64,000 bases of DNA from Polyangiaceae bacterium. GTDB taxonomy: Bacteria > Myxococcota_A > Polyangia > Polyangiales > Polyangiaceae. The stretch covers positions 1-64,000 of the forward strand of contig JAFGIS010000515.1 in assembly GCA_016929495.1 (NCBI GenBank). The letters are read 5' to 3'. A model generated the notes under the pieces. That model was not told the origin of the DNA. It searched no databases and was given only the letters and a program-made list of their open reading frames with translations. Positions 59,904 to 64,000 of the stretch are shown here, one piece after another. Every line of letters starts with the position of its first letter. Positions within the stretch are counted from its first letter, which is position 1. Position numbers and translations under genes: made by a program.

Positions 59904-61898
<1,995 letters not shown>

Positions 61899-62241
61899 GG
61901 GCGGCGGCGCCTGGCGCCGGAGCCGCACGGCTCGTCTTGCGCCAATCTCGAGAGGCGATTTCAGGGTGATGCCCCCACCACCATCCGTCCTCGCGCTGCG
62001 CGCTGCGGGCGGGCCCCAAGCTCTGGCCGCCGCAGGCGGACAGCAAGCTTGGGGTATGGCCTCCCCCCAATCGCCCGCCGAGGTGGGCTCAGGGGGAGGT
62101 GAGATCACGCGGCGCTGGCTACGTAGTCCACGAGAAACCGTAAGACTTCTCGCAAGTCACTCGGCGAAGACGCCGGACGAAGAAGTCGCTCTCCCTCTCG
62201 CGCACGTGGCCGAGCGGGGTCCCGGCTGCCGAGCCCTGTGA
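61899..62241. other. Downstream region of rpoD with GC-rich inverted repeats
   Basis: Right after the rpoD stop lies CGGCGCC-t-GGCGCCG (61905-61919), which may help termination. Further on, CCCCAAGCT (62014-62022)/AGCTTGGGG (62046-62054) and CCTCCCCC (62060-62067)/GGGGGAGG (62092-62099) form two successive stems. No gene is supported; short frames look spurious. Confidence 0.5.
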
Positions 62242-62538
62242 CCTGCTGTCGTCTACGCTGACGCACTCTTCACCGCGCGGCCGCATCGGTTCCTGCTCGT
62301 GCAGCCGACATCGGCAGCGGTCGGAGCGGTGGCGCACAGTGCAGCAGAAGCGGTGCGGCTCGCCAAGCGGCGGGGCGGACGGATCACCCCGCTCCTGGTG
62401 GTGCCGTACACGAGTGAACTCGGCCGGCACGCATGCGATGCCGCGGGCGTGTCGTGGTTCGATAGTCGCTCCGTGACACTCACGGACAATCCGTACCGTT
62501 ACACCACGTGCCTTTGTGAGAACTGCTTGTGCACATGA
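62242..62538 (+). pseudogene. Fragment resembling an AbiEi/RE-like antitoxin-type protein
   Basis: The plus-strand frame open from 62242 contains FLLVQPTSAAVGAVAHSAAE, then ITPLLVVPYTSELGRHACDA and AGVSWFD. This resembles the strand-helix segment (PLLVVPY...GVSWLDLSGN) of restriction-endonuclease-like proteins of the AbiEi/type IV toxin-antitoxin group, from memory. The usual continuation DLSGNA is replaced by DSRSVTLTDN and the frame ends soon after. No start codon or upstream HTH part is present. It is probably a leftover 5'- and 3'-truncated gene. Its end overlaps the Cys-rich gene on the other strand. Confidence 0.5.
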
Positions 62539-62914
62539 GACTAGCTACCTTCAGGCAGTCCGAAGGCGTACCGCCGTAGTAGTACTCCGTAATGGTTCCG
62601 CCGGCGCGTCCATATCGGCACGTGGCCACAACCTCGCCGGAGCAGGTTCCGTTCTCCTTCCACTTCCCATTTGAATCGTTCTGCTCCTCGCACGTCGTCT
62701 GCAGCTCCTCTGCCTCGTACTCGACGTCTTCGTATTGACAGCAGAACTCGTTGCAGTTGCTGATGGTCTCATCCACTCGAGTGTCACAGCTTCCACTGAC
62801 TCGACTCGAACACGCCAGGTGAATCAAGCCGAAGACCCAAGTCACCGCAGCACCACAATCCAACCTCGTGGCAATGCCCAACCGTGACGAACGCACCACT
62901 TGACGAAAACGCAT
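62480..62914 (-). CDS. Small Cys-rich secreted protein
   Basis: The 144-residue protein has a hydrophobic N-terminal segment ending GLIHLACSS (about 26-35). The mature part has 12 cysteines when the one at the signal end is counted, for example SNCNEFCCQYEDVEYEAEEL, CSGEVVATCRYG and DCLKVASLMC. Its base composition is clearly less GC-rich than in the core genes around it. Even Cys number and secretion signal imply a disulfide-rich extracellular or lipid-anchored protein; no family is recognised. A transferred origin is possible. Confidence 0.6.
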   Translation of the reverse strand: MRFRQVVRSSRLGIATRLDCGAAVTWVFGLIHLACSSRVSGSCDTRVDETISNCNEFCCQYEDVEYEAEELQTTCEEQNDSNGKWKENGTCSGEVVATCRYGRAGGTITEYYYGGTPSDCLKVASLMCTSSSHKGTWCNGTDCP

Positions 62915-63302
62915 CTGCGTACACTACCACGGCCTTTGGTAGTCACACGAACGTCTTGGATGAGGCTCAGATTCGGAGTACGTTTCTTCGAACAGAGACT
63001 GAGGATGAGCTGCCCACCCCGGCCGCCGTTGGCCCGCGGGGACAGCCGGCGGCCCGCCGCCTCCCAAGGGCCTGCTCGGCCTTCGGCCTGCGCGTGGCCC
63101 GGGAGGGGCGAGCGCGACGAGTCAGGTCGCTTTGGGTCGTGGCTCCTGGATCTCCGCACCCCTATGGTCCGAATCCTGGCTACCGACCGCGCGAATGTGG
63201 AATGTGGGAGTTCCGCAGCCCGTCTTCGCCGAGACGATGCGCATCGTGCCCCGTGGAGGGGCCGATATCGGCTGCGTGCCTCGCCAACCGTCCCGCAAAC
63301 CT
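62915..63302. other. Intergenic region rich in GC stems, no gene supported
   Basis: GGCCGCCG (63021-63028) pairs with CGGCGGCC (63047-63054). CCTCC plus GGGCC (63060-63072) pairs with GGCCC plus GGAGG (63096-63106) around a small bulge. These may terminate the transcript of the gene at 63303-63920, which runs toward them. Long open frames on both strands are Arg/Pro/Ser-rich shadows. Confidence 0.4.
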
Positions 63303-63920
63303 TCACCCCGGAAACCACCGCCGAAGCGTGGCCCGGAGCTTCCCGAAAGCCGGGTCGACGCAGCTCTCGAGCGGCAGAACGCGCGCAAGCTCCGCGAACA
63401 GCCCCGCCGACACCGGCTGCCTCACCTCGCCCAGCGCGCGCCGCATCGCCGATTTCGGGTCCCTCGGCTTCTGGGTAGCAGTCGCGGCGAGAGAGGACGC
63501 GACGAGCCACTCGCGGAGCGTTGGCCGCCTTCCCTCCCACCCCAGAATGCGGGCCACTGCCGCCGATTCCGCCCAGACCCACGCCTCGAGCTCCGGATCG
63601 ATGACCACCGCCGCCGATCGGCCTTCCCAGCCGTTGGCTGCCAATGCGGCCTCGACGTCCTCTTCGATGAGAGCTCGTGCGCGTTCGTCGCCGCAGCCGT
63701 GCCGGTCGAAGATTACGAGCGCGCGCTCGTACTGCCGCAAGTACGGACGCAAGAAATCGTGAGACCGCCTCCGGCAGCCTGGGTCCCGCCCCGAATGTCG
63801 GAGAACCCGAGCACGCACCGGGCGAGTTCCCAGGGCAACATGGCGCTCGAGCAGGGCCTCTAGGCCCTTCTGCGTGTCGGCATCGGCCGTGAGCACCAAC
63901 AAGTCTGCCTGCAGCGTCAC
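63303..63920 (-). CDS. TOPRIM/DUF4276-like protein, possible defence-system component (MAD4-like)
   Basis: The 205-residue protein starts at GTG 63920, overlapping the upstream stop (GTGA). Visible elements are DLLVLTADADTQKGLEALLE, RHSGRDPGC, YERALVIFDRHGCGDERA, VVIDPELEAWVWAES and the end FGKLRATLRRWFPG. The alternating hydrophobic/acidic pattern (TADAD, FDRHGCG, IDPELEAWVW) fits a TOPRIM-like fold as in DUF4276. From memory, similar sequences are named MAD4 in methylation-associated defence systems; this is unverified. Such genes usually follow an AAA ATPase, which the truncated upstream gene could be. Confidence 0.6.
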   Translation of the reverse strand: MTLQADLLVLTADADTQKGLEALLERHVALGTRPVRARVLRHSGRDPGCRRRSHDFLRPYLRQYERALVIFDRHGCGDERARALIEEDVEAALAANGWEGRSAAVVIDPELEAWVWAESAAVARILGWEGRRPTLREWLVASSLAATATQKPRDPKSAMRRALGEVRQPVSAGLFAELARVLPLESCVDPAFGKLRATLRRWFPG

Positions 63921-64000
63921 CCGAGCACTCCGCTCGCGAACAACGTCCCCAGGTCAGGATCCTGTTTCCAGTCTCGCAACGCCGGGTGCTCACTTCCGCG
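63917..64000 (-). CDS. C-terminal end of an unidentified gene, cut by window edge
   Basis: An open frame entering from the right edge encodes 27 residues including HPALRDWKQDPDLGTLFASG and ends with TGA at 63917-63919, overlapping the next gene's GTG by four bases. The tight coupling shows it is a real gene in the same operon. Too little is present to assign a family. Confidence 0.6.
   Translation of the reverse strand, partial: RGSEHPALRDWKQDPDLGTLFASGVLG

Follow-up and report, generated by a model that had tools for sequence, protein, structure and literature searches.

A free-standing MAD3-MAD4 pair behind rpoD of a Polyangiaceae bacterium, probably a two-gene OLD-like defence module, lies between two copies of an rpoD 3' end

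To what system does a candidate defence gene at the very edge of a sequenced stretch belong, and how did it come to sit behind rpoD? The window analysed here is a 64-kb stretch of DNA, bases 1-64000 of a 76,091-bp contig in a Polyangiaceae genome of 9.6 Mb and 675 contigs. Its initial annotation proposed a possible defence operon entering from the right, with the rest of the system outside the window. With the sequence extended to the right, we arrive at a reading to which we assign a probability of about 0.62: the locus would be a complete two-gene anti-phage module, composed of an OLD-like MAD3 for sensing and MAD4 as the effector, that arrived horizontally behind rpoD. Its features are listed below, in window coordinates unless stated otherwise.

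59904..61898, + strand: rpoD, intact (Pfam Sigma70 r1.1, r1.2, ner, r2, r3 and r4); the pair sits behind it
61766..61901, + strand: direct repeat, left copy: the 133 bp that end with the rpoD stop codon, and the next 3 bp (91% identity over 136 bp, E 3e-51)
61902..63302, no strand: left part of the bracketed unit, with two short orphan ORFs
62299-62538, + strand: short orphan ORF, no family match
62480-62914, - strand: short orphan ORF, Cys-rich, no family match
63303..63920, - strand: mad4, GTG start, MAD4-type protein of 205 aa, predicted effector (NF047734, 202.9 bits, cut-off 160)
63917..64000, - strand: mad3, 3' end (84 bp in the window), AAA_21/AAA_15 ATPase (NF047739); the whole gene spans contig 63917-65188 (L002:1917-3188)
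Contig 65763-65898, beyond the window: direct repeat, right copy, from the same search as the left copy

The 205-aa reading frame and its four-base overlap (GTGA) with the preceding gene, mad3, are present as annotated. The suggestion of a MAD4-type protein also holds, the score against the NCBIfam MAD4 equivalog (E 5.6e-60) passing the curated cut-off. Among PADLOC models, mad4 matches at E 2.4e-09 and HEC-01B more weakly (18.3 bits, E 3.6e-4), and AriB gives no match at E 1. A likeness to DUF4276 had been proposed as well; we dropped this identity because Pfam returned a single sub-threshold match, to an unrelated family. The annotation had further advised looking to the right for an AAA ATPase, and the gene found upstream is of that kind rather than a housekeeping gene: its product scores 491.4 bits against NF047739, the NCBIfam MAD3 equivalog (cut-off 420), and carries the Pfam AAA_21/AAA_15 ATPase domain (PF13304, 77.7 bits). 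In PADLOC it is best matched by HEC-01A (141.5 bits, E 9.8e-42), followed by mad3 (100.9 bits) and AriA (91.6 bits). Searched as a profile against solved structures, MAD3 finds the OLD-family protein 6p74 first (E 4.8e-18), then PtuA, GajA and AriA among others, and it appears from these matches to correspond to the ATPase half of OLD nucleases. The part of the system expected outside the window thus amounts to the rest of MAD3. Beyond it lie 0.57 kb without a recognised gene, the rpoD 3'-end copy, and four ORFs in which a Pfam scan recognised one ECF-type sigma factor and one MgtC/DUF4010 protein, with no match for the other two. The two orphan ORFs between rpoD and mad4 match nothing at E 0.01 in Pfam, PADLOC or NCBIfam.

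The position of the pair is marked by a long repeat of target sequence. The end of rpoD is copied beyond MAD3 with 124 of 136 positions identical, and these 136 bp bracket the unit on both sides. At five of the 12 sites where the copies differ, all 29 relatives carry the base of the functional copy, so the one beyond MAD3 has probably been decaying as a remnant. Because of its changes at conserved sites, every one of the 29 relatives resembles the functional copy more closely, and this comparison does not discriminate between directions of insertion. In the listed matches from 39 genomes, a short extra rpoD-end match above 85% occurs only in the genome of the window, and nothing comparable in the 38 others. 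The rpoD loci of the 29 relatives, which reach at most ~1.5 kb to each side and so less than the 3.9 kb involved here, contain one rpoD-end copy each. We also considered rpoD as a hotspot and rejected the idea, as no MAD3-like gene occurs within that reach in any of the 29. An empty site was not found in a close relative; the right-hand neighbour gene is present in only 4 of 108 family genomes, this one included.

Related pairs are bracketed in the same manner elsewhere. When 89 loci totalling 1.17 Mb were scanned for direct repeats (length 80 bp or more, identity 78% or more, spacing 0.5-6 kb), 10 were returned, and five of them bracket an ATPase-Toprim-like pair against 0.26 expected; none of 20,000 random shifts reached five, in a count that includes the cases that raised the idea. 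This statistic uses manually assigned pair positions for L084, L041 and the window; for 37 HEC-01 loci it takes the 1,350 bp preceding HEC-01B as the assumed ATPase gene. All HEC-01B matches weaker than E 9e-10 were left out, as was one stronger match, in G444 near 8.23 Mb; G468:C372 is L084. Within the HEC-01 loci, gathered after the idea arose, a repeat brackets 1 of 37. The five bracketed pairs, by target gene, are:

rpoD (window): MAD3-MAD4, both above their cut-offs
thyX (L034): MAD3-MAD4-like, with scores (357.6 and 72.3 bits) short of both MAD cut-offs
Protein kinase gene (L087): MAD3-MAD4-like, MAD4 below its cut-off (151 bits)
hsdS (L084:5709-8055): HEC-01A/HEC-01B, flanked by hsdS and by a copy of the hsdS 3' end
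DUF922 gene (L205:4062-6454, in G102): HEC-01 pair, with a repeat of 157 bp that is 99% identical

Target-gene names were confirmed with Pfam and the L205 pair with PADLOC. By eye, the stop of the DUF922 gene in L205 and the GTG start of an EAL-domain gene seem once to have overlapped. In L084 a MAD3-MAD4 pair comes immediately after the HEC-01 pair, so that two related modules adjoin. In a cyanobacterium (L041:2474-4035), a DUF29 gene and apparent HicA/HicB remnants, identified by eye, lie behind a homoserine dehydrogenase gene and are bracketed by a 119-bp copy (96%) of the end of that dehydrogenase gene. Upstream of MAD3 and in frame with it, L087:5830-6408 resembles a helix-turn-helix regulator, seemingly as in L029, L031 and L032, again by eye.

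Across cases the repeats measure 113-265 bp and, in five of six (L041 included), reach the stop codon or up to ~28 bp past it; the hsdS repeat ends 57 bp short. Most pairs have no such repeat: it is clear in only 3 of 49 assessable MAD-type pairs, and a crude count by locus gives no clear excess (4 of 49 MAD-type pairs versus 6 of 153 dummy intervals). A translated scan recovered the same three MAD-type cases, with weak low-complexity matches in L031, L035 and L101. Closely related MAD3-MAD4-like pairs (tree path ~0.24) occur in L034 and L033, which come from two genera of the same family, and their neighbouring genes differ, possibly through movement. A repeat footprint at five different target genes offers a handle on how small defence genes lacking a recombinase move between chromosomes, and would extend to ATPase-Toprim pairs a pattern described for restriction-modification (RM) genes.

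How, then, would such a unit enter? Insertion of RM systems with long target duplication was reportedly described by Nobusato (Gene, 2000), and the titles and abstracts listed for this process link it to no ATPase-Toprim pair, which is weak evidence of absence. An insertion of this type, or else a homology-assisted joining without a dedicated enzyme, in which a fragment with a gene end at its tip recombines with that gene, or the unit leaves and re-enters as a circle through its repeats, is the account of the repeat that we find most plausible, at a little under even odds. It fits the variety of target genes and the 99% identity of the 157-bp case, and the range of lengths agrees with the target duplications of the order of 100 bp that excerpts of the RM literature describe (PMC3874152; PMC3031569; PMC1643837). 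A plain target duplication, however, leaves the thyX locus unexplained. With the genus mates G071 and G102 as reference, 11 sites are informative, the mates sharing one base there and the two thyX-end copies having different ones: the mates' base is found in the stranded copy at 9, in the functional gene end at 1 and in neither at 1. By this count the functional thyX end looks foreign and brought in, and the stranded copy native, the reverse of what plain target duplication predicts. A drop in thyX identity at the repeat was also considered as a sign of gene-end replacement and set aside; the drop is partly natural, because the mates themselves differ more from each other there (90.3 to 76.6%), and we keep as evidence only the site count and the terminal part. 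The thyX genes of G071 and G102 (L121, L122) contain an insert within the open reading frame, probably an intein, and the thyX of G281, behind which the pair lies, has none.

The native-looking stranded copy at thyX, like the repeats that run to the stop codon or slightly past it, would suit an att-like scar of a tyrosine-recombinase island, an element that brings a substitute 3' end and whose integrase was lost or acts in trans. We consider this doubtful, since every case has its own target gene (rpoD, thyX, a kinase gene, hsdS or a DUF922 gene), which is unlike one integrase, and the thyX repeats enclose 2.15 kb in which nothing but the pair was recognised. A bolder synthesis would make split-OLD pairs (MAD3-MAD4-like and HEC-01) minimal mobile units of ~2 kb that lack integrase and transposase, settle behind the stop codons of unrelated genes and carry a substitute 3' end, perhaps with their own ATPase-nuclease making the entry break; we regard it as a long shot. 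For the window itself, we favour an order of events in which the pair arrived horizontally as a small unit and was joined just behind the rpoD stop codon, an event that would have kept rpoD whole and left 136 bp of an rpoD 3' end on both sides.

What the pair does is suggested by its relatives. A sequence search of solved structures with the MAD4 profile found nothing at E 1. An AlphaFold model built from six sequences (pLDDT 89.3, pTM 0.86) gave OLD C-terminal regions at ranks 1-3 in Foldseek, with probabilities of 0.98-0.89 and E values of 3e-3 to 1.6e-2, all above 0.001. A second structural aligner gives these regions Z 9.2-8.5 over 172-180 residues, level with a Piwi MID domain (Z 9.3, 111 residues) and with PH0156 (Z 9.1, 166 residues). 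Ranked first by Foldseek and tied in the second comparison, the C-terminal, Toprim half of OLD nucleases is probably the nearest match to the predicted fold of MAD4. OLD joins ATPase and Toprim in one protein and PARIS keeps them in two genes, as set out in PMC10568477; because MAD3 and MAD4 resemble the two halves, the most plausible reading of the pair is a split OLD laid out as in PARIS. Phage defence would follow by analogy, from family membership and from the embedding of related pairs among defence genes. MAD3, as an OLD-like ABC ATPase, would sense infection and hold MAD4; upon a trigger, the Toprim-like MAD4 would be activated or released and would cut nucleic acid, either phage DNA or, as in PARIS, host RNA, thereby stopping the infection. 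Such a module would work without the methyltransferase and kinase of MADS.

The catalytic part of this scheme depends on residues that are only partly in place. The Toprim glutamate should presumably fall at MAD4 residues 11-13, just after the first strand of the model, a placement of our own made without superposition; none of the 49 aligned MAD4s has E there, and residue 13 is Asp in 41 of them. In the same alignment D72 and P109 are invariant (49/49), residue 112 is always E or D and residue 156 always K or R. Residue 74 is D in 5 and E in 15 of the 49, so that as D72-x-D74 the DxD motif is mostly incomplete. An excerpt of PMC6755086 defines the Toprim domain by Glu, Gly and DxD, and reports that an OLD domain that had lost the Glu alone still cut in vitro. 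The TOPRIM-like acidic pattern of the initial annotation is therefore incomplete: D72 is in place, and the glutamate is missing from residues 11-13. From the missing Glu and the scarcity of D at residue 74, the Toprim site may be lost or different in MAD4, or MAD4 may be no nuclease. One MAD4, that of G331 (L028:1331-1926), is read in two frames, through a frameshift or a sequencing error.

If the site is dead, MAD4 could be a regulator or an antitoxin-like partner, with MAD3 alone as effector. We hold this to be rather unlikely. The absent glutamate speaks for it, as does E. coli YbjD, whose Toprim domain was dispensable for the phenotype according to the abstract of PMC13261556; D72, the acidic residue 112 and the basic residue 156 are nonetheless kept throughout, as an active site would be. 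We retain MAD4 as the predicted effector of the pair.

It remains to place the pair relative to full MADS. The sample comprised 52 MAD4 loci: the window, 46 loci found by searching its phylum and its class as well as the phyla to which a gammaproteobacterium and a planctomycete belong, and 5 from a species collection; seven weak or partial matches were left out (G212:C52, G221:C204 as MAD4 locus, G118, G663, G631, G850 and G1024). A MAD3-like gene adjoins MAD4 in 51 of the 52, weakly in L113 (48.9 bits), and in the remaining locus the contig begins at MAD4. Partners were sought with the genes of a plasmid MADS-like operon and of a DUF1156/DUF499 locus as queries; the labels MAD1-MAD8 on the plasmid, assumed from gene order, and the label Hma are our own. 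Within 8 kb of the window pair no partner matches at E 1e-10, and the same screen finds two to five in L091-L093. No methyltransferase, kinase or other MADS partner was thus recognised within these 8 kb, and the possible operon comes down to a probable two-gene defence pair. The window mad3-mad4 is a two-gene unit with no other MADS gene recognised beside it, and it is not a full MADS, which would have the MAD2 methyltransferase, the MAD6 kinase and MAD5/7/8 in the same operon. The MAD2 query was discarded as a test over 14 genomes, since it matched in all 14 control genomes and had no discriminating value.

Pairs that stand alone outnumber the rest in this sample. Three loci have two or more MADS partners and two have DUF1156/DUF499 partners. 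As other loci have short flanks, the context count was restricted to the 30 pairs with at least 2.5 kb on each side; 27 of these have no Hma-like partner and fewer than two MADS partners; four of the 27 (L029, L031, L084 and L086) show a single weak kinase or methyltransferase match (63-73 bits). A tree of 49 MAD3 rows sets the four MADS-borne MAD3s apart by a fully supported branch (100/100), and the window MAD3 lies outside this group, among the lone pairs, with G447 nearest (65%). A phage search gave no match at E 1e-10; viral contigs contain 15 MAD3 relatives, with best-segment identity of at most 33%, and two plasmid records have full-length relatives, one in a MADS-like operon and the other beside methyltransferase genes. 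That the pair is a stump of a MADS operon stripped of its other genes is very improbable: both genes bear MADS names in NCBIfam and full MADS-like operons exist elsewhere (the plasmid operon; L092, L093), but against this stand the 100/100 branch, the prevalence of lone pairs and a MAD7 query that, in a search without positive control, found nothing in the pair's own genome. Because MAD3-MAD4, named as parts of a larger system, are mostly a free-standing two-gene module in this sample, annotation as MADS can mislead.

Set beside known systems, the pair shares with MADS two genes that pass the NCBIfam MAD3 and MAD4 cut-offs, in the order of a MADS-like operon, and differs in having no recognised methyltransferase, kinase or MAD5/7/8 and in its place outside the MADS group of the tree. 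HEC-01 (PADLOC; 'Hma-embedded candidate') likewise joins an ATPase to a small second protein, and HEC-01A is the best-scoring model for MAD3; moreover, two MAD3-MAD4-type pairs lie beside relatives of DUF1156/DUF499 defence genes, relatives that are far below the family cut-offs where scanned. In contrast, MAD4 matches HEC-01B less well than mad4. HECs were found by guilt-by-embedding and several are antiviral in assays, in a passage of PMC12988326 that does not name HEC-01. PARIS also places an OLD-like ATPase (AriA) and a Toprim protein (AriB) in separate genes, whereas here AriA ranks below HEC-01A and mad3 for MAD3 and AriB gives no match at E 1, so the pair does not qualify as PARIS. OLD nucleases, GajA and PtuA are sequence relatives of MAD3, and the OLD C-terminal fold leads the Foldseek matches of MAD4; unlike them, the window system is split into two genes, and the Toprim Glu is not seen in MAD4. 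As in RM insertion with long target duplication, treated in part of PMC3874152, a small defence unit lies between direct repeats of the order of 100 bp, but here the units are ATPase-Toprim pairs at gene 3' ends, with repeats that mostly end at the stop codon. Both genes are members of known families; what this locus adds is their free-standing form and a gene-end footprint around ATPase-Toprim pairs.
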